A DNA stretch of 53,810 nucleotides from a virus: the IMG/VR virus record IMGVR_UViG_3300030099_000437, positions 1-53,810 of that record. One strand, written 5' to 3'. Under the pieces are notes generated by a model. It searched no databases. It had not been told where the DNA came from and saw only the letters and a list, made by a program, of their open reading frames with translations. Position 1 is the stretch's first letter. Each line of letters opens with the position of its first letter. Below, piece after piece: positions 3,752-33,317 of the stretch. Both the position numbers and the translations under genes were made by a program.

Positions 3752-5538
3752 TACCTTACATCCCCCAATCCATAAGTAATTGTAAATCCCTGTATACTGT
3801 GACTTTCATTTTTATCATCTGTAACATACGTAAGAGCTAGTGCTTTACCTGAACCAGAAAAAGTAACAGACTCCACAGGAGATGGATTACCATCAAATAT
3901 ATCACTAGTATCAAAAACAGCCACGTTTGTTCCTCTGTCAAAAAATGCTCCCGGACTTGAAGTAGAAAGCGATAAGTTATCAGGAGTTGCTACATCTGTA
4001 TTATCGTAGTCATATGTTACAGACAATGCTATCGAAAAGTTACCCTCTGCACTCATATAGGTAGAAGCATTATAAAAAGTTTTTCTTTGCTCTGGATTAT
4101 CCATATAGATAAAAGGAGTTTTAAATATACTTAATATATTACTCGTATCAAAAGCATTACCAGATTCTTGTCTATATACTTTACCATTAGATTGTCCATG
4201 TATTATAAACTCTTCTTGACCTATATATCCACTATCTGCACATGTACATTCTATACCAAAAGTTTGAGTAAACTCAAAAGATATATTCCCACCTTTTTCT
4301 CTCAGTCCTCCTAATATTCCTTGAGAAGAAGACCCTGAAAATAAGTATCTAAACTGTGACTTACTCCTAACTATTACAGACGAGAGAGTAGTTAAGTCTT
4401 CTGCGTTTATTATCCCTGTAACTGTAGACTGTATATTCTTAGAAATTGTTTCAAGATTAACGTCACCAATCTTTGCTGTACCACCAATAGGTCTAATACC
4501 GTCAGGTGCTAAGAATAGTAAGTCACCACCTAATTCTACCACACTATCTGTTGCTAGACACCCTAAGTTTGAAGTAACTGTTTCTAACGTAAAGTTAGCA
4601 GAGTTTTCTCCTACTAATCTTTTAATATTATTTGTACCAAATATGTATAGTACGTTACGAAACTTCTTTATAGCAACTATCTCAAAACCTACATTTATAA
4701 CTCCACCACCATTAGCAGGACTAAAATCGGTTTCTGCAGTAGGAGCAGAAAAGAATAAGTTACTAACTTGTGCAGGGTCTCCTGCAAGAAACAAATGGTT
4801 CTGAAACTCTGCAGACATTGTAGGGTCTGTTGGTGCATTCGAATCTGTTATCTGCGTATATGTACTACCATCATATGTAGCTGCAGGATTAATACCATCT
4901 GTCAATATAACTTTAGGAGTTCCAAAGTTTATTTCCGTAAATCTAACTTTACTCACACCTGTCATAGTTGGTGAGCCACTTGTAGTTACTGCAGTCCAAC
5001 CCACTACAGTAGGAGTAGAAGTTACTGTTGTCTCTGCTTCTGATGTTCCTCCTGTAAGAACATTACCTGTTGCAAAAACAGAAGTTGGTATTCTACCAAA
5101 ATCTATAGTTAAAGAAGCAGAAGCTCTTGCTTTTACAGTTCCTGAAATACCTGTAGATGTGCTATCACTAGAACTTGTTACGGCTGTTACTGTTTCTCCA
5201 ACAGTAAAGTTTGTTCCTTGCCCTGAAGTAACTGGTACAGTGAAATAAAAACTCCAATGATGAAGATAATTATTTCCTGAAGAAGGTGTTCTACAGGCTA
5301 GTATTCCTTGATTAACACCATTAGCTACAGCAACACCCAGTATTGAACCAGTTCCGGGAACTGTGCCTAAATCATTAGCAAATCCAGAAAGTCTTCTATA
5401 GCCACCCTCAAGGTTAGGTTCATAATTTAATAACTGTGTAGCAGACCCCGGACTTTCTTGTCCTAGAGTAAGAACATCTGCACCAGTATTTAAACCGCCT
5501 CTACAGTTTGCTTTAAAGGTAGATACTGCATCTGCCAT
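3751..5538 (-). CDS. Tail nozzle / tail tubular protein B-like (595 aa)
   Basis: Matches in length, position and composition the tail tube B or nozzle protein that closes the T7-like tail. It begins MADAVSTFKANCRGGLNTG, then has the NYEPNLEGGYRRLSGF stretch characteristic of this group, where the chain enters its beta-propeller-like repeats, followed by DGINPAATYDG-type segments. No enzymatic motif is seen. It lies directly downstream of the adaptor gene and upstream of the long fibre gene, the usual order of tail genes in podoviruses. The assignment rests on remembered family features and context. Confidence 0.8.
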   Translation of the reverse strand: MADAVSTFKANCRGGLNTGADVLTLGQESPGSATQLLNYEPNLEGGYRRLSGFANDLGTVPGTGSILGVAVANGVNQGILACRTPSSGNNYLHHWSFYFTVPVTSGQGTNFTVGETVTAVTSSSDSTSTGISGTVKARASASLTIDFGRIPTSVFATGNVLTGGTSEAETTVTSTPTVVGWTAVTTSGSPTMTGVSKVRFTEINFGTPKVILTDGINPAATYDGSTYTQITDSNAPTDPTMSAEFQNHLFLAGDPAQVSNLFFSAPTAETDFSPANGGGVINVGFEIVAIKKFRNVLYIFGTNNIKRLVGENSANFTLETVTSNLGCLATDSVVELGGDLLFLAPDGIRPIGGTAKIGDVNLETISKNIQSTVTGIINAEDLTTLSSVIVRSKSQFRYLFSGSSSQGILGGLREKGGNISFEFTQTFGIECTCADSGYIGQEEFIIHGQSNGKVYRQESGNAFDTSNILSIFKTPFIYMDNPEQRKTFYNASTYMSAEGNFSIALSVTYDYDNTDVATPDNLSLSTSSPGAFFDRGTNVAVFDTSDIFDGNPSPVESVTFSGSGKALALTYVTDDKNESHSIQGFTITYGLGDVR

Positions 5539-17025: not shown

Positions 17026-18579
17026 TTAATATCCAAATGTTGTATCAGCTGCTTGAAATCCACTCTTTTGAGATACTGGATTGTAATCAAATAAACTGCT
17101 TCTTGGTCTTGTCATAACTCCATATCGTAGTGCGTCATACAGATGGTCTTCAGCATTTGTGTCTACATCTTCAGAATTATTTTTATCTAAAGGAAGAGCA
17201 GGTATCTGTGAAGCTAAGTTTGTACATGTATTAAAAAAGACCATTCTAGGTTCTTCTGTAAACTCATCTATCTGTAATCTTCTGTGTATTTCATTCTTAC
17301 CTGCTACTCTTGAGCCTCTACTTCTGTCTGAAGGTCTCCATCTACAACCTTTGACTATCATCTGCTCTGCCAAAGATGGACCAGTATCGCCACGTTTATG
17401 CCAAAGGCTAGAGTCCAACACACCATACCGAATAGTTCCATCTTCTGCCTCTGCTTCCAGTATCATATCAGCTAAGTCTGTAGCTAATACTTTTGACACA
17501 TATAATTCTCTATAGACTACAAGTTGTTCCGATGGAGCAACTGCAATCCAGACAACACCTGTATGACTACCATACCCATAATCACATGCGCGAAACTTAG
17601 CCCAACTGTTAGGAATACTATAGGGTTCGACAACATGCACTTGTCTGTTCCACTCTGGGAAAGCTGCTCCTTCATTGACATCCCAATTTCCTTCTAGTAA
17701 TTGTTTTCGTTGATATTCAGGTAGAGAGAGTAGGTTTGCTTCATACATACCATCTTCAGCTAAGTATGGATTATCAAATAGTGTTGCAGGGATAAATCGT
17801 CTTTTAAATAAAGGCTCTCCCTCTCGACTATGTCCTTTGGGCATTGTTAGTATTTGCCCTGTTTCTATATCTGTAGCCCAGAACGCTGTTCCATGTGGAG
17901 CAGGGTCTATAAACATTTTCTTAACCCACTGATGTCCTGCACCTCCGGGGTTAGTTGTAGCTCTCTGGTATAACTCTAAGCCACTTCCTTTTGCAGTACG
18001 TAGTCGAGAACGCATGTAATCAAACGGATATGGACTTGCCCACTGTGTCAACTCGTCAAAGCCTATCCAACTAAATGCCTGTCCTTGGTATCGTGTAACG
18101 TCATCATCACGGTCAAGGTAGGATAACCAGAGTGTTGCACCTGATGGAGCTACCCAAGTCTTGTCTCTCTCCATAAACCTTATATTAGGTATCGCCTCTG
18201 GATAGAGTTGTTTGGAGACAGAGATAAGTTCTCTAAGTTCCTCCGTTGTTCGTCTTATAAGCAACCCACGAAACTGCGGATTATTTAAATAGCGTACAGG
18301 GTCTGCCAACATAGCATAGGACTTACCTCCACCTGCTGAACCACCGTATAATACTTCTCTTTCATTAGAAGAAAGAAACTCTGTTTGTGGTCCTTTATTA
18401 GGTTGGAAGATAACTCTCTGAGCTTCTTCTATTTCTATCGGTTCTGGCTTAGGCTGTGGATAAACCTTCTGCTCTTCCACCAATTCTTTCTTCAAGCCTT
18501 TCGGCTTTTTGTAACGCTTCCTTGTACCTTTCGGCAAGGTAGCGTTGATTTGAAGCTTGTCTCTTACGCTTTTGTTCAA
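17026..18579 (-). CDS. terL: Terminase large subunit (517 aa)
   Basis: DNA-packaging motor ATPase and nuclease. The Walker A motif GGSAGGGKS lies near residue 85, the Walker B/catalytic Glu in FSWIGFDELTQW near residue 175, and the coupling motif in ATTNPGGAGHQW. The RNase H-like nuclease half shows RACDYGYG, VVYRELYV and an acidic VLDSSLWH. The start at 18579 overlaps the upstream gene by 131 nt; the Lys-rich first 30 residues are plausible but a shorter start cannot be excluded. The order of small subunit candidates, TerL, portal is canonical. Confidence 0.92.
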   Translation of the reverse strand: MNKSVRDKLQINATLPKGTRKRYKKPKGLKKELVEEQKVYPQPKPEPIEIEEAQRVIFQPNKGPQTEFLSSNEREVLYGGSAGGGKSYAMLADPVRYLNNPQFRGLLIRRTTEELRELISVSKQLYPEAIPNIRFMERDKTWVAPSGATLWLSYLDRDDDVTRYQGQAFSWIGFDELTQWASPYPFDYMRSRLRTAKGSGLELYQRATTNPGGAGHQWVKKMFIDPAPHGTAFWATDIETGQILTMPKGHSREGEPLFKRRFIPATLFDNPYLAEDGMYEANLLSLPEYQRKQLLEGNWDVNEGAAFPEWNRQVHVVEPYSIPNSWAKFRACDYGYGSHTGVVWIAVAPSEQLVVYRELYVSKVLATDLADMILEAEAEDGTIRYGVLDSSLWHKRGDTGPSLAEQMIVKGCRWRPSDRSRGSRVAGKNEIHRRLQIDEFTEEPRMVFFNTCTNLASQIPALPLDKNNSEDVDTNAEDHLYDALRYGVMTRPRSSLFDYNPVSQKSGFQAADTTFGY

Positions 18580-22688: not shown

Positions 22689-23366
22689 TTAGTCCTCCTG
22701 TTTAGCATATAAGTTATTAAAGACTCTTTGAGTATCCCATACGTACTCAGTCTCTTGTTTTGAGTGGAACACTCTCTGACTTGGCTTAAAGTCTGGTGCG
22801 CCTTCCCCTGTCTCAAACCATGCAGGATGCGTTACTCTCACCCTGTTGTTTGGTAGTGCAACAATGTTGCCTGTATATTCTCCTGCGTCCATTAACTCTA
22901 ACACATGACTTTGTTTGTGTTGAGCAGGGTCATCGGCTATCTCACTGTTTGTATAGTCTACAGTAAAATAATACTTCGCAGGATAGAACTCTCCATCCAC
23001 CTTTGCAATCCAAGGTGAAGGAGTAGCCCTATTCAAAACGTAGACTGAATGGTCATGCGACATGCAATCCCAAGGTTGTGCTACGTATGGTGGTAACTCT
23101 TGCGGCCATTCATCTAATGGAGTGTCACCAACCAATGCTGTGATGGGCATTCTCGCCCACATTGCCCCACCGTGTACATTCTCTTCGTCTGTCTCATCTG
23201 CCTCACACCCGGTAAATATTACCTGAAAACTGAGGCTACGGTTTGGCATACTTGTCACGGCTATTACCATTGCATGTAGAAAGTCTCCGTGGTGTCTTTC
23301 AAAATTACAAGTATATTCTCTTCTAACCCATGCTTTAAAGTATGGTATGTTACTTTGTAGATACAT
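22689..23366 (-). CDS. Conserved hypothetical protein (225 aa)
   Basis: Soluble, aromatic-rich protein (YFKAWVRREYTCNFERHHGD; MARMPITAL as WARMPITALVG; QPWDCMSHDHSVYVLNR) with many His, Trp and Cys, so a folded enzyme-like or beta-sandwich domain. I do not recognise the family. It begins 2 nt after the DUF1127 stop, sharing its promoter, and lies upstream of the basic small-protein cluster. No catalytic pattern can be asserted. Confidence 0.6.
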   Translation of the reverse strand: MYLQSNIPYFKAWVRREYTCNFERHHGDFLHAMVIAVTSMPNRSLSFQVIFTGCEADETDEENVHGGAMWARMPITALVGDTPLDEWPQELPPYVAQPWDCMSHDHSVYVLNRATPSPWIAKVDGEFYPAKYYFTVDYTNSEIADDPAQHKQSHVLELMDAGEYTGNIVALPNNRVRVTHPAWFETGEGAPDFKPSQRVFHSKQETEYVWDTQRVFNNLYAKQED

Positions 23367-24683: not shown

Positions 24684-24711
24684 GTTATACTCCTAACACA
24701 TTCTTTGTCAA
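24684..24711 (-). promoter_or_regulatory. Late-class promoter
   Basis: Minus strand TTGACA (24706-24711), 16-bp spacer, TATAAC (24684-24689), followed by TAGT, identical in the key elements to the capsid promoter. The predicted start is at or just before ATG 24676, so the transcript would be leaderless or nearly so. Confidence 0.7.
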
Positions 24712-24746
24712 GAATAAACGACAAAAAATTAACTTCTATTATGTAT

Positions 24747-24852
24747 ACTTAAAGTAACTTAAATAATTACTTAAGAGGAGTAGGAGATTAAGTGTACTTT
24801 AAGTCTTATTATGTATTACATTATGTATTATATAGGATTATTTACTTAAAGT
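24747..24852. repeat. Three ACTTWAAGT operator-like boxes, copy A
   Basis: Exact boxes at 24747-24755, 24796-24804 and 24844-24852, spaced 49 and 48 bp, in both orientations (ACTTAAAGT and ACTTTAAGT are reverse complements). Intervening partial palindromes (CTTAAGTAATTATTTAAG) strengthen the impression of a cooperative repressor or activator site. Confidence 0.65.
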
Positions 24853-24855
24853 CAA
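24827..24855 (-). promoter_or_regulatory. Upstream leftward promoter with operator boxes
   Basis: Minus strand TTGACT (24850-24855), 17-bp spacer, TATAAT (24827-24832). Three ACTTTAAGT/ACTTAAAGT boxes are positioned around it (24747-24755, 24796-24804, 24844-24852), the last overlapping the -35. The sequence downstream aligns with that downstream of the rightward promoter at 31658-31685. Confidence 0.72.
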
Positions 24856-24859
24856 GCCC

Positions 24860-25260
24860 CCTCCCTCTCTTTTTTCGTTACAGGTAGGTTTTTCAGGGTA
24901 AAATCACTGTGTTGCCGCTTAACACCCCCGGTATACATACAATATCCTCTCAGAGGCTTAAATTTAGCCACTGAGTAGGGGTAAATGTAATCCATATGGT
25001 AGACTGCCTGTAGTCCTACTCCCCCTCCTCAGAGGGGAAATATAAAGACCTACTGAATTTTACCATGCAGCAGCCTTACGCAGCAGTGTGCAGCAGCTAA
25101 ATGCCTAAAAAATAGGCATAATATTACAACTGCACAAAAAACAGGCAGTTATATACAGTGGTTAACACCCTAAATTACCCCTCTCTGGCAGAGTACGAGT
25201 ACGCATACGTACAGGGGTGGGGTGGCACTTGCCACGGTGTTCTCGTTTTGTTCTAATCCT
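24860..25260. other. Non-coding, hairpin-rich segment, possible origin
   Basis: No supported gene. It contains many palindromes: CCTCT/AGAGG; GAGTAGG (24973-24979) with CCTACTC (25015-25021); CCCCTC/GAGGGG (25022-25037); ATGCCTA/TAGGCAT around an A5 loop (25101-25119); GTGGCA/TGCCAC near 25222-25235. Three GCAGCAG direct repeats lie at about 25067-25096. Together with the AT-rich block that follows, this resembles a replication origin or a further structured transcript. Confidence 0.45.
25067..25096 (+). repeat. GCAGCAG direct repeats (three copies)
   Basis: GCAGCAG recurs three times, at spacings of about 13 and 10 bp, directly before the perfect ATGCCTA/TAGGCAT inverted repeat. Iteron-like in arrangement; no binding protein is known. 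Confidence 0.5.
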
Positions 25261-25566
25261 GTCCTTAAATTGAGAACATTTAGTGAACAAATAGAGTAAG
25301 TCATTGTTTTTATTAAGTATTCATAACAATAATACATTATCAGTAATTTTTTTTGTCTTAAAAACTCAATAAAATCAGTAAGTTATCAAAAAGTTTGGTA
25401 TTTATGTATTTTTTTTGTTGCAATCTGTTTTTCGTTATGCCATTGTTTAGGAGTTCAGAAGACGGAACACCAGAACTAAACGGTTAAATGTCCAACTTGT
25501 TCTAACCTGAAGCACTGAACAGAATATGACTAAATGACTACCGCCTAAATAAAAAAGTTTTTTAAT
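25260..25566. other. AT-rich non-coding block
   Basis: About 300 bp with many A/T runs (T8 near 25347, T8 near 25410, AAAAAAGTTTTTT near 25551) and no open frame with a usable start. It is compatible with a DNA-unwinding element for replication initiation or with promoter UP-elements for the RNA candidate that follows. Confidence 0.45.
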
Positions 25567-25602
25567 CTTGACTTTAATTTTAAAATAAGGTTAGACTATA
25601 AA

Positions 25603-25978
25603 ACAAGTCTTGCGGATACTAGCAAGCCACCAAGAGCGGAATGTAAGTCTCATTGTCTGGGTGATATCAGACTAGGTTAACTCCTCTATTGCCGATAATG
25701 CTTAATTGCATGGGCTAACCTTAACGCTTGCCATATGTGAGTATTGGGTGTCTTAAAAGGGTGTAGAGTATCCACCAGAGCTACGGTCAATCTGTCTGGT
25801 GAGCCGAATGAGTAAGGTCAATGTGGCTACGCTTGTTGTCTGTTATTGCGTGGAATGTAAATCGCAGGAGTTTCTAGGCTAAGTCCAACCATTGTTGTCC
25901 TTTGGGTGAATCCATAAGCCCATAAAATATATCTTAATGGGGGAGTAGCTATGGTGACATAGGTGACAAGCTCCCCCA
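25603..25978 (+). ncRNA. Candidate structured non-coding RNA, about 375 nt
   Basis: No protein frame, but dense complementarity. CTTGC/GCAAG (25609-25626) has loop GGATACT complementary to AGTATCC (25767-25773), a possible pseudoknot. GTCTG/CAGAC (25655-25672). AGGTTA/TAACCT (25674-25679, 25716-25721) encloses GCC/GGC and ATGC/GCAT. CACCAGA/TCTGGTG (25773-25779, 25795-25801). CTACGC/GCGTGG (25827-25853) uses G.U pairs that favour the plus strand. A terminal TGGGGGAG/CTCCCCCA helix (25938-25978) carries CTATG-GTGA-CATAG with a GNRA tetraloop. TTGACT at 25568 gives a possible but imperfect promoter. No known RNA family is recognised. Confidence 0.55.
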
Positions 25979-25987
25979 ATAAGTTTT
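25938..25987 (+). terminator. Strong 3' hairpin, terminator-like
   Basis: 8-bp TGGGGGAG/CTCCCCCA stem with an inner CTATG/CATAG hairpin closed by GTGA, followed by AATAAGTTTT. The U-run is short, so termination may be partial, allowing some read-through into the early genes. Confidence 0.5.
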
Positions 25988-26292
25988 ACTCAGTGATACC
26001 TCTAGGAAAGTAATGAGGTATACCTATGACAATTTCAAAAAAAGCTGAAGATTTTAATTTATTAGTAGTACGCAATATCGTTGACAATTTTTCTCGAAGA
26101 AATGACAACAAAAAAGGAGTACATTCTTTTATATATAAGCTAACGCATAAGAACTATAGGTGCAATGTAAAATCTGTTACCTATGGTGGGAAAACATACT
26201 TGAGAGGTCAATTCTTACCCAAAGTTTTTTGGGAATTAAGATAAGACTTTACAACAACAATTTTTTAATATAGAGGTATCACTAAGTAAAAC
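25983..26292. repeat. 22-bp inverted repeat flanking the first early gene
   Basis: Left arm 25983-26004, right arm 26271-26292, inverted, with one mismatch: both contain AGTGATACCTCTA (or its complement) and GTTTTACT. They enclose the 72-aa gene at 26026-26244. In RNA they would form a long stem closing around the gene; in DNA they could be recombination or protein-binding sites. Confidence 0.7.
26026..26244 (+). CDS. First early gene, small basic protein (72 aa)
   Basis: MTISKKAEDFNLLVVRNIVD, then a basic segment and HKNYRCNVKSVTYGGKTYLR. Highly basic and probably nucleic-acid- or host-protein-binding; no family is recognised. It is enclosed by the inverted repeat 25983-26292 and preceded by GAGG 8 nt before the ATG. 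As the first gene after the control region it is a candidate host-takeover factor. Confidence 0.58.
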   Translation: MTISKKAEDFNLLVVRNIVDNFSRRNDNKKGVHSFIYKLTHKNYRCNVKSVTYGGKTYLRGQFLPKVFWELR

Positions 26293-26307
26293 AATGAGAG
26301 GTGAAAT

Positions 26308-26931
26308 ATGATAGATAATATTATAGGTACATACTACCTATCTAAATCTGGGGAAAAGCTACATGGGTTTGCATGGTATCTTGACGCATACAAATCTTGT
26401 GTCGTTATCTCCAAGAGGTTTGGTGTACCATTAAAGGTGGTGGTGGGTGTATGCTCCGCACTATCTCCGAATAATAAATGGCATAAGAATATTATTGACA
26501 CTGAGAATATGGTGCTTGCCTATAAATCAGGCATACCATTGGATGAGGTCAAGGTGTCAACGTATAGCAATAATAAAGCAAAAGCTATTGAGATGCTTAT
26601 GCTACCCAAAGCTACTAAGCAAGACATAAGGGATATACTGTTTGGTAAATCTGGGCATAAGACTAGGGCATTTTTTGACTGCATATATGGGTGTAAGACG
26701 AACAAGGATACAGTATGTGTAGACGGACACGCTAAGTCTATCTATATGGGTGAAAAATTTGCCCTGAGTAGTAACAAAAGCAATATGACACCCAAACAAT
26801 ACTTGACCATATCACAAGCCTATATTGATGCGTGTGATGAGATAAACAAGCGAGAGGGTACAAGCTACCTACCCTATCAAATACAAGCTATAACATGGGT
26901 AGCTTGGAGGAGAATACATGGCATCACATAA
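26308..26931 (+). CDS. Conserved phage protein with ALSPNNKW motif (207 aa)
   Basis: VVVGVCSALSPNNKWHKNI, STYSNNKAKAIEML, GHKTRAFFDCIYG, VCVDGHAKSIYMG and the C-terminal YQIQAITWVAWRR follow, in order, a pattern I recall from a widespread phage family of unknown function (possibly DUF7178). The invariant-looking Asp, His, Lys and Trp residues suggest an enzyme or DNA-binding fold related to helix-hairpin-helix proteins, but no activity can be stated. RBS GAGAGGTG. Confidence 0.68.
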   Translation: MIDNIIGTYYLSKSGEKLHGFAWYLDAYKSCVVISKRFGVPLKVVVGVCSALSPNNKWHKNIIDTENMVLAYKSGIPLDEVKVSTYSNNKAKAIEMLMLPKATKQDIRDILFGKSGHKTRAFFDCIYGCKTNKDTVCVDGHAKSIYMGEKFALSSNKSNMTPKQYLTISQAYIDACDEINKREGTSYLPYQIQAITWVAWRRIHGIT

Positions 26932-27184
26932 TAGAGAAATTAGAAATAGGATTAGGCTATCATTGGCAAGCTATGCCTACGAATACCATGATGATAGCCT
27001 GATGACTGACGCAGAATTTGACAAGCTATCAAGAGAGATAGACCCTAACGAAAAGACAGGCAATGAGTTGATAGATAGATTTTTTCGTGAAGAGTTTATG
27101 CCTGACTCTGGAATGTGGATTAGGAAACACCCTGAGTTGTGGAAGTTGGAGCATATTTATAAAACATTGAGAGGTAAAAAATGA
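26918..27184 (+). CDS. Small protein resembling DNA ligase domain Ia (88 aa)
   Basis: The segment LSLASYAYEYHDDSLMTDAE then FDKLSREID recalls the N-terminal domain Ia of NAD-dependent DNA ligases (helical, YxYEYY...PDAEYDxL), which binds NMN. The rest (FFREEFMPDSGMWIRKHPEL) has no ligase catalytic lysine. It is therefore a stand-alone Ia-like domain or a look-alike. It overlaps its neighbours by 14 and 4 nt. Confidence 0.6.
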   Translation: MASHNREIRNRIRLSLASYAYEYHDDSLMTDAEFDKLSREIDPNEKTGNELIDRFFREEFMPDSGMWIRKHPELWKLEHIYKTLRGKK

Positions 27185-28536: not shown

Positions 28537-28760
28537 TGTATTATGTTATTGATGACTATGAGGGGGAGGGTTTCACCTTCTCCTCTAAGATAGAGTTCCG
28601 AAGATGGTTACTGAATGAGTATGATGAGGACAGACACCTTATACATACTACTGAGCAGGAACATCTTGAACACTTAGCAAAATATTATGTTGACAAAGGT
28701 TTTGATGACAGGTATGATGACATTAATAAAATAGGAGGGATATATGATGTTGATTACTAA
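28536..28760 (+). CDS. Early acidic hypothetical (74 aa)
   Basis: ATG 28536 overlaps the upstream TGA as TGATG and has AGGAGG 7 nt upstream. The product is acidic and aromatic (MYYVIDDYEGEGFTFSSKIE; LAKYYVDKGFDDRYDDINKI). DNA-mimic-like in charge, but no family is recognised. It overlaps the next gene by 17 nt. Confidence 0.58.
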   Translation: MYYVIDDYEGEGFTFSSKIEFRRWLLNEYDEDRHLIHTTEQEHLEHLAKYYVDKGFDDRYDDINKIGGIYDVDY

Positions 28761-31974: not shown

Positions 31975-32266
31975 TTTAAATTGTCCAGAGTGTGAGGTGT
32001 GTAACCCTACAGATGAGGTCAACCACCCATCTCACTATACAACAGGTGGGATAGAGTGTATAGATGCTATGAAGGCTATGATGGAAGGTGCTAATGTACC
32101 CTCGTTCATTTCGTATGATTGGGGTGCAACATTCAAGTACATCTGGAGATGGCACTACAAAGGTAAACCTATCCAAGACTTAGAGAAAGCTAAGTGGTAC
32201 ATAGATAAGATGATTGAAACTCTGAAGGAGAAAGATGAAGTATACGACAAAAATAAAACAAACTGA
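31910..32266 (+). CDS. DUF3310 protein with N-terminal zinc ribbon (118 aa)
   Basis: N-terminal CAMCGYLLDDDLNCPECEVC supplies two CxxC pairs. Then VNHPSHYTTGGIECIDAMKA, ATFKYIWRWHYKGKP and DLEKAKWYIDKMIE give the DUF3310 (SaV-like) domain known from many phages, often near replication genes. Proposed in the literature to be nucleotide-metabolism related; not proven. Confidence 0.82.
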   Translation: MSIPPIIPKTHCAMCGYLLDDDLNCPECEVCNPTDEVNHPSHYTTGGIECIDAMKAMMEGANVPSFISYDWGATFKYIWRWHYKGKPIQDLEKAKWYIDKMIETLKEKDEVYDKNKTN

Positions 32267-33317
32267 TGGTACTTATCACTATCGTTTCAGTCCACCGAAA
32301 GATGCAAGACTTTCTGGTGTATCTCAGAGCAAGACGTTCAGAGATGGTAGGACTGCACGATTTGAGATACCGAAGTTAATTAAGATTGTCGAGGACTTTC
32401 GTAAAGGTAAGATAGTGGCAGGGAACTTGAGCATCAACAGTACACTAAGGCAAGTTCTCTCCTACTACTACAATACAGGTCAATTCAAAGCCCTGTCAAC
32501 AAGAACACAGAAGACTTATACATATGGTCTTAATAAAATATGTGCCAGTAAGTTTTTCGCAAGAGAATTAGGTGACATCACACTAAGATACCTCACTGTT
32601 GCCCACTGCTCAGAGTTATACGAGTTGTGGGCGAGAGGTGGAGTAGATAATGCCAACCAACTGTCCAGAATATTCTCTGTCGTACTAAATTTCTGTGTAA
32701 ATCTTGAGTTGATTGACTCAAACCCAATGGCAAAGGTAAAAAAGAGGTCACATGAGCCTCGCTCTGTCACTTGGGCTAAGGAACAGGTAGAATTATTCGT
32801 AGAGACTGCATTTACACAGTTCAAGTGGAGAAATATAGGCTTACTCGCCCTACTCTGCTACGAATGGGGTCAAAGACCGATAGATATTAGGCTATTGAAG
32901 TGGAGTTCAGTAGATTTAGACAACAAAATGGTGACAATAAAGCAGACTAAGCGTGGTGCAACTGTCCAACTACCTCTAGAGGACAAGTTGTGGGAGTTAC
33001 TGACCCAACAGGAAGAGGATTGGGGGTGGCAGCCATACGTATTACCTCATCAGAAGCCGAATAATGGGGGCTACAGCCCGATTGGTGACATTCAGGTATC
33101 AACCCTTGCAAATGAGGTAAAGTCTGTGTGTGGGCTTCCTTCAGCCTTACAGATGGGAGACCTTAGAAAGACTGCGATAGTAGAACTTATCGAAAGTGGT
33201 GTAGACCAACTGGCAATCATGTCTGTAACAGGACATAGGAACGTACAAAGTTTGAACCCTTACAACAAACATAACTTTGCCACTGCAAAATCTGCACTAG
33301 AGATGAGGAGAAGGTAG
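32235..33317 (+). CDS. int: Tyrosine integrase (360 aa)
   Basis: Site-specific recombinase. The catalytic domain shows GQRPIDIRLLKW (Arg near residue 211), KQTKRGA (Lys), MGDLRKTAIVELIESG (second Arg; the usual preceding His is Gly), VTGHRN (His near 332) and LNPYNKH (nucleophilic Tyr near 342). The N-terminal SAM-like DNA-binding region is present, so the enzyme is full length. It lies behind the consensus promoter with replication genes rather than beside an obvious attachment site or repressor; I saw no attP. Confidence 0.86.
   Translation: MKYTTKIKQTDGTYHYRFSPPKDARLSGVSQSKTFRDGRTARFEIPKLIKIVEDFRKGKIVAGNLSINSTLRQVLSYYYNTGQFKALSTRTQKTYTYGLNKICASKFFARELGDITLRYLTVAHCSELYELWARGGVDNANQLSRIFSVVLNFCVNLELIDSNPMAKVKKRSHEPRSVTWAKEQVELFVETAFTQFKWRNIGLLALLCYEWGQRPIDIRLLKWSSVDLDNKMVTIKQTKRGATVQLPLEDKLWELLTQQEEDWGWQPYVLPHQKPNNGGYSPIGDIQVSTLANEVKSVCGLPSALQMGDLRKTAIVELIESGVDQLAIMSVTGHRNVQSLNPYNKHNFATAKSALEMRRR

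Follow-up and report, generated by a model that had tools for sequence, protein, structure and literature searches.

Does the 1.3-kb noncoding stretch that separates the two arms of this phage genome encode a structured RNA, as the original prediction proposed from the letters of one sequence, and what would such an RNA do at the head of the early genes? The window (the whole stretch of DNA analysed, a viral record of 53,810 bases) carries structural genes leftward and, from 26 kb, replication genes rightward: primase-helicase, family A DNA polymerase, exonuclease, ribonucleotide reductase and a tyrosine recombinase. Its DNA polymerase is 54% identical to the counterpart in Roseobacter phage CRP-6, and the small leftward gene adjoining the RNA region has its relatives mainly in Roseobacter phages (CRP-1, -2, -9, -13, -207, -345 and -603). 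The phage is marine, podovirus-like and kin to the RCA-roseobacter (HMO-2011-type) phages, described as a dominant and broadly distributed marine group (PMC9038755). Three features define the locus:

25568..25597, plus strand: sigma-70-like early promoter, TTGACT-N18-TAGACT, with transcription expected to start at about 25604
25605..25983, plus strand: structured RNA (whole), family type I, delineated from relatives L107, L209, L193 and L104/L105
26026..26244, plus strand: ORF1, 72 aa, of no known family

The promoter-like site, recognized by sequence pattern, scores 9/12, no excess over shuffles by itself; by eye, TTGACn-N17/18 recurs at the equivalent place in L001, L013, L014, L016, L104, L107 and L209.

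The region has no protein frame, as predicted: sense ORFs reach at most 27 aa, and the longest antisense frame is 50 aa with a TTG start. ARAGORN and Rfam returned no tRNA or tmRNA match either. An Rfam search, which the prediction had proposed as a check, matched no family in the whole window; specifically, Rfam 15 at its gathering threshold gave 0 matches in the window, L001, L013–L018, L021 and 18 further loci, a permissive scan gave chance matches only, and the GOLLD and ROOL covariance models found no match in the window. A blastn search of the RNA against isolated phages was likewise empty, as were those of three other leader types. Folding energy by itself carries no signal (z = -0.40 on the plus strand, -0.52 on the minus strand). 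With an unremarkable folding energy and no Rfam match, the RNA claim was not upheld on one sequence alone, and relatives had to decide. The window's own minimum-energy fold already has helices P3 to P7 of the consensus described below.

Relatives were gathered by baiting first with the DUF7178 gene downstream and next with the small leftward gene, and by two pattern scans. Four further distinct type I members emerged at the same locus—L107 (on the same contig as L184), L209, L193 and L104 (of which L105 is a near copy)—and in each the same leftward gene lies on one side and early genes on the other. The type I set is therefore five sequences, representing about three independent lineages, in the collections searched. 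The DUF7178 gene is present in the window and L104 and was not found in L107/L184, L209 or L193. A covariance model built from four members (R1) matched the fifth, L209, at 177 bits (E 3.6e-44), and among the other loci searched it matched only L105 significantly. The pattern AAGCTCCCCCAWTAAG recovered L001/L006 as its only real relatives; two further pattern scans returned mostly coding-sequence coincidences, yet yielded L193 and L209. A scan of bacterial genomes produced nine chance matches, the best scoring 13 bits with the model.

The five cores were aligned with MAFFT, blind to structure, and RNAalifold proposed the consensus, which has seven helices in a core of 156 nt (25651-25806) preceded by a hairpin and followed by a less widely shared domain:

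25609..25626, plus strand: hairpin P0, 25609-25613 paired with 25622-25626 (CUUGC/GCAAG)
25655..25672, plus strand: hairpin PA, 6 bp, conserved UGAUA in the loop, 2/6 pairs compensatory
25675..25805, plus strand: closing helix P2, 25675-25678 with 25802-25805, all paired with one one-sided change, hence weakly supported
25684..25768, plus strand: helix P3, 25684-25693 with 25760-25768, 9 pairs, 6 compensatory, 100% paired
25698..25711, plus strand: hairpin P4, with a GAAA loop in relatives, not in the window
25712..25753, plus strand: helix P5, 25712-25721 with 25746-25753, 100% paired, with 1 compensatory change and 2 changes on one side
25726..25742, plus strand: hairpin P6, 3/6 pairs compensatory
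25773..25801, plus strand: hairpin P7, 7 bp, conserved loop around GCU..GGU, 5/7 pairs compensatory
25816..25922, plus strand: 3' domain common only to L104/L105, with 25816-25821/25895-25900, 25835-25838/25886-25889 and a hairpin at 25903-25922

Across the five sequences, 99.1% of the cells in the 44 nested pairs are standard pairs, and 17 of the 44 have changed on both sides. None of 500 shuffles reached any of five measures for this fold, a structure derived from the alignment it was tested on; the hand-made helices tested first, and P3 alone, agree with that result. When partners were slid by 1–3 columns, pairing dropped to 42%, with at most 3 compensatory pairs. P3, which the covariance model does not contain, passes its own covariation test. 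Outside the core, the P0 stem reads CUUGU/ACAAG in L104 and CGCAU/AUGUG in L107, L193 and L209, and the hairpin at 25903-25922 reads UGGG/CCCA in the window and UAGG/CCUA in L104 (a two-sequence comparison by eye).

The relatives also settle the strand. Alignment columns 66-108 and 78-94 are G.U pairs in 5/5 sequences, and on the other strand these would be C.A mismatches; the plus strand is thus the RNA, as the prediction had held from its G.U pairs. More than six helices exist, in line with the predicted minimum of six. Of the predicted pseudoknot, the distal helix (25684-25689/25763-25768) is real, with 5/6 pairs compensatory in this 6-bp part and an extension pairing 25691-25693 with 25760-25762. 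The helix that would cross it (AGGTTA, 25674-25679, with TAACCT, 25716-25721) shows no compensatory change and loses two pairs in L104. Since its competitor, helix P5, pairs in all five sequences, the helices nest, the predicted pseudoknot finds no support and the coaxial stack of GGC on TAACCT falls away. An initial hand-made structure with the pseudoknot had been dropped on the same grounds, after RNAalifold offered a nested alternative and single-helix tests went against the crossing helix. The repeated GGTCAAT is present at 25785 and 25816, as described, with only the first copy forming a conserved loop of the family.

Covariation among aligned relatives thus goes beyond chance where folding energy gives no signal. 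Together with strict synteny, the promoter-like site just upstream and the lack of an Rfam match, it strongly supports the central claim, that the early region opens with a structured RNA left unannotated; on this comparative evidence, 25605-25983 is a genuine structured RNA whose family is not in Rfam.

Two elements beyond the core bear on what this RNA might do:

25938..25978, plus strand: terminal domain, an 8-bp outer stem around a 5-bp GNRA-capped inner hairpin, with GUGACAAG conserved on its 3' side
25983..26004, plus strand: left arm of a long-range inverted repeat bracketing ORF1
26271..26292, plus strand: right arm of this repeat, after the ORF1 stop codon (a BLAST self-hit)

The terminal GC stem (25938-25945/25971-25978) with its GUGA-capped inner hairpin, already seen in the single sequence, recurs in seven phages (the window, L107, L209, L193, L104, L001 and L097). 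The outer stem, 7–10 bp long, differs in sequence in most of them and is always fully paired; the inner loop is GNRA in 7/7 (GUGA or GCAA), and GUGACA or AUGACA lies 3' of the inner hairpin in 6/7. L097 and L001 have this domain in common with the window and carry RNA bodies of another type.

The arms lie outside the coordinates of the original prediction, and the left one starts a few nucleotides past the terminal stem. Arms of 22 nt bracket ORF1 in seven phages (the window, L001, L193, L107, L104, L013 and L014), pairing at 20–22 of 22 positions within each phage over a spacing of 266–327 nt, as against 10–19 of 22 between clearly different phages, whose arms can have as few as 7/22 letters alike. 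Those of L209 and L107 are nearly identical, a compensatory G/C swap setting them apart. In the window the arms pair at 21/22, compared with a best of 19/22 in 150 random placements within it; L016 has no arms. A stem formed by the arms would reach the length of RNase III leader stems, about 20 bp or longer; most phages have a mismatch at its centre. G.U and A.C mismatches occur at similar frequencies, so arm sequence alone does not prove pairing at the RNA rather than the DNA level, and the arms might be DNA sites. On a DNA-level reading, the locus would serve as a replication origin, packaging or recombination site whose inverted repeats only resemble RNA stems, with the arms as inversion sites for the phage's tyrosine recombinase, a reading to which the large noncoding control region, the integrase-family gene at 32235-33317 and the inverted 22-bp arms flanking ORF1 would lend themselves. 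It is nevertheless a very improbable one: the conserved G.U pairs are valid on the plus strand only, loops are conserved, mismatches between the arms have not been corrected back to identity and the arms vary in sequence between lineages. Inversion of ORF1 in particular was judged unlikely, its orientation being identical in all phages examined.

Near relatives reveal how the body behaves. L001, whose DUF7178 gene is 98% identical to that of the window, matches the intergenic DNA at 80% identity up to 25601 and again from 25932; between these flanks lie about 170 unrelated bases that resemble L097 and, by eye, L016/L017. L001 has retained the promoter, terminal stem, arms and downstream genes around an unrelated RNA body. 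Furthermore, its ORF1 matches that of L013 (53%, 5e-14) and the start of the L097 ORF1 matches that of the window, in both cases despite different RNAs. RNA type is thus decoupled from ORF1 type and from the genes beyond ORF1, and by these alignments the RNA body is a swapped cassette.

This exchange bears directly on whether the RNA could be a riboswitch-like or translational leader controlling ORF1, which would sense some signal and expose or mask the ORF1 start site, with the left arm pairing with either the ORF1 Shine–Dalgarno (SD) sequence or the distal right arm. The position is typical of a leader, and the left arm includes an SD complement (ATACCTC/GAGGTAT) in the window and L013/L014/L015. 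However, L107 and L104 lack SD sequestration, conservation does not extend to the hairpin at the ORF1 start site, and neither an expression platform nor a terminator accompanies the RNA (no plus-strand terminator was found in 24700-26400). A riboswitch aptamer would be tied to the genes of one pathway; here one RNA family stands before differing ORF1 and ORF2 genes, the body can change where the ORF1 family stays, and in the nearest relative, L001, the whole body is replaced ahead of unchanged downstream genes. An RNA that does not track the genes after it is unlike a gene-specific riboswitch, and the riboswitch-like leader raised in the original prediction becomes improbable.

Other phages fill the same slot with other RNAs. 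A third type, in L013–L015 (about 4790-5060), has 13 compensatory pairs across three sequences with 0/500 shuffles reaching that level; among the other slot types it is the only one for which covariation was assessed with controls, and an alignment of type IV gave mixed support. By eye, and with weaker tests, some hundreds of noncoding bases also lie there in further HMO-2011-like contigs and in two cultured phages, CRP-9 and CRP-207; a long stem closes these stretches, ahead of the first ORF or of the record's end. Inspection by eye, which turned up shared strings such as CUGAGAUGC, CUUAAGGG and AGUCGAAA, did not establish a fold common to types I, II and III and the remaining HMO-2011-like leaders. 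It is possible, if on balance doubtful, that a hypervariable RNA slot heads the early operon of HMO-2011-like phages, filled with dissimilar takeover RNAs that are swapped independently of neighbouring genes, much as T7-like phages swap anti-defence proteins at the corresponding place.

Several side observations concern this slot. Other HMO-2011-like contigs fill it with at least six further noncoding stretches of 250–500 nt that look structured and do not resemble one another; contigs with other slot types include L013-L015, L016/L017, L112/L167/L169/L172, L116/L131/L138, L122/L132/L162/L171 and L141/L159. The last ~450 bases of the records L198 (CRP-207) and L201 (CRP-9) are an unannotated stretch with a closing stem and a CCAA-capped inner hairpin (AUAAG-CCAA-CUUAU in CRP-9, CAUAGG-CCAA-CCUAUG in CRP-207), and both records end just past it.

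Phage packaging RNAs of the phi29 type also combine divergent sequence with a conserved helix plan, and the window's RNA, an early phage RNA that changes fast in sequence while keeping its helices, resembles them in this respect. A packaging or assembly role nonetheless strikes us as barely credible here, given an ordinary terminase large subunit in place of a phi29-type ATPase, and an early-promoter position and whole-body swaps between close relatives that are unlike a structural partner:

17026-18579: terminase large subunit, ordinary type

The nested fold, its strand, synteny, the terminal domain, the arms around ORF1 and the replacement of the cassette are all established by comparison among relatives; they point to an RNA that probably has its job at the start of infection. 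We tentatively prefer, at only just short of an even chance, the reading that it acts in trans as a discrete, processed early RNA. Host RNA polymerase would transcribe it rightward as the first product of the early operon, and transcription from about 25604 would be expected to continue into ORF1, as no intrinsic terminator follows the RNA. The architecture suggests that both arms would then pair in the transcript as a 22-bp stem of RNase III-substrate size, that a cut at this stem would release the RNA as a discrete molecule with its own closing stem at the end, and that the freed RNA would act in trans on a host target during takeover (candidates being RNA polymerase, the ribosome, an RNase or a defence factor). 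An arms race, or adaptation to local hosts, would then account for the quick turnover of types among relatives. The preference follows from two patterns: a closing stem that runs straight into a two-turn bracket hints at excision of the RNA, and exchange among close relatives suggests an outward-looking role.

The fold and position would be equally expected of a cis-acting leader, and the main rival is an early leader whose anti-pausing or antitermination effect on elongating host RNA polymerase would let the long early operon be read, as with put of phage HK022. There, putL lies directly after the early promoter, and put is about 70 nt with two stem-loops (PMC9378689). The window's RNA likewise follows a promoter (as recognized by pattern) directly, would be made by host RNA polymerase before any gene, is independent of the identity of the gene downstream, and has some structured stretch as its counterpart in related phages. 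It differs in scale: ~380 nt and at least eight helices (seven of them over 156 nt in the core alone), a GNRA terminal domain and no Rfam similarity. Moreover, the early operon contains 2 weak plus-strand intrinsic terminators (7 on both strands, against 7.9 in shuffles) and strong-looking internal promoters at 28690, 31658 and 33785, so an antiterminator would have little work here, unless it is Rho that stands in the way. We regard a put-like role as rather unlikely.

Other close company is the large multi-helix phage-encoded RNAs GOLLD and ROOL, to which no function is assigned; GOLLD expression goes up during lysis of phage-infected cells (PMC12286853). ROOL (~660 nt) and GOLLD (>800 nt) often lie near tRNA islands, whereas the window's RNA is about half as long, has no tRNAs beside it and heads the early operon. 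The description as an ornate phage RNA was therefore fair in kind, with no match to Rfam families, GOLLD and ROOL included. As a kind, it joins these phage structured RNAs; its fold and position are new and its exchange behaviour is unusual.

T4-type phages carry promoter early stem loop (PeSL) cassettes, in which an early promoter and a stem-loop bound exchangeable modules; the exchanged module there is an ORF with the stem-loop as a small joint, whereas here it is the RNA itself. Long stems of about two turns bracket transcribed units at the RNase III sites of T7 early mRNA and in pre-rRNA processing. The arms resemble these and differ in enclosing ORF1 over 266–327 nt with lineage-variable sequence, and their cleavage is predicted. 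The open-licence literature searched, genome papers on these phages included, mentions no noncoding RNA in this region, which is also blank in the annotated records. Should the slot encode early takeover RNAs, the first phage product would be an RNA, not a protein; the covarying bracket around ORF1 offers an immediately testable processing model, and cultured CRP-series phages on RCA roseobacters exist as test material.

Other parts of the window deserve brief mention. Upstream of the promoter, 24725-25560 is long, AT-rich and noncoding, with repeats ATTATGTATTACATTATGTATTAT and CCTCCTCAGAGGGG and 80% conservation in L001; a strong leftward promoter-like site (TTGACT-N17-TATAAT) lies at 24855 on the minus strand, and this part is likely a bidirectional control region or origin. 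The tyrosine recombinase gene (32235-33317) belongs to phrog_1 (integrase), and a ferredoxin-like auxiliary gene (phrog_3704) lies at 22689-23366. At 26918-27184, an 88-aa protein amounts to the NAD-binding N-terminal (Ia) domain of NAD-dependent DNA ligase (PF22745) and nothing more, the catalytic domain being absent.
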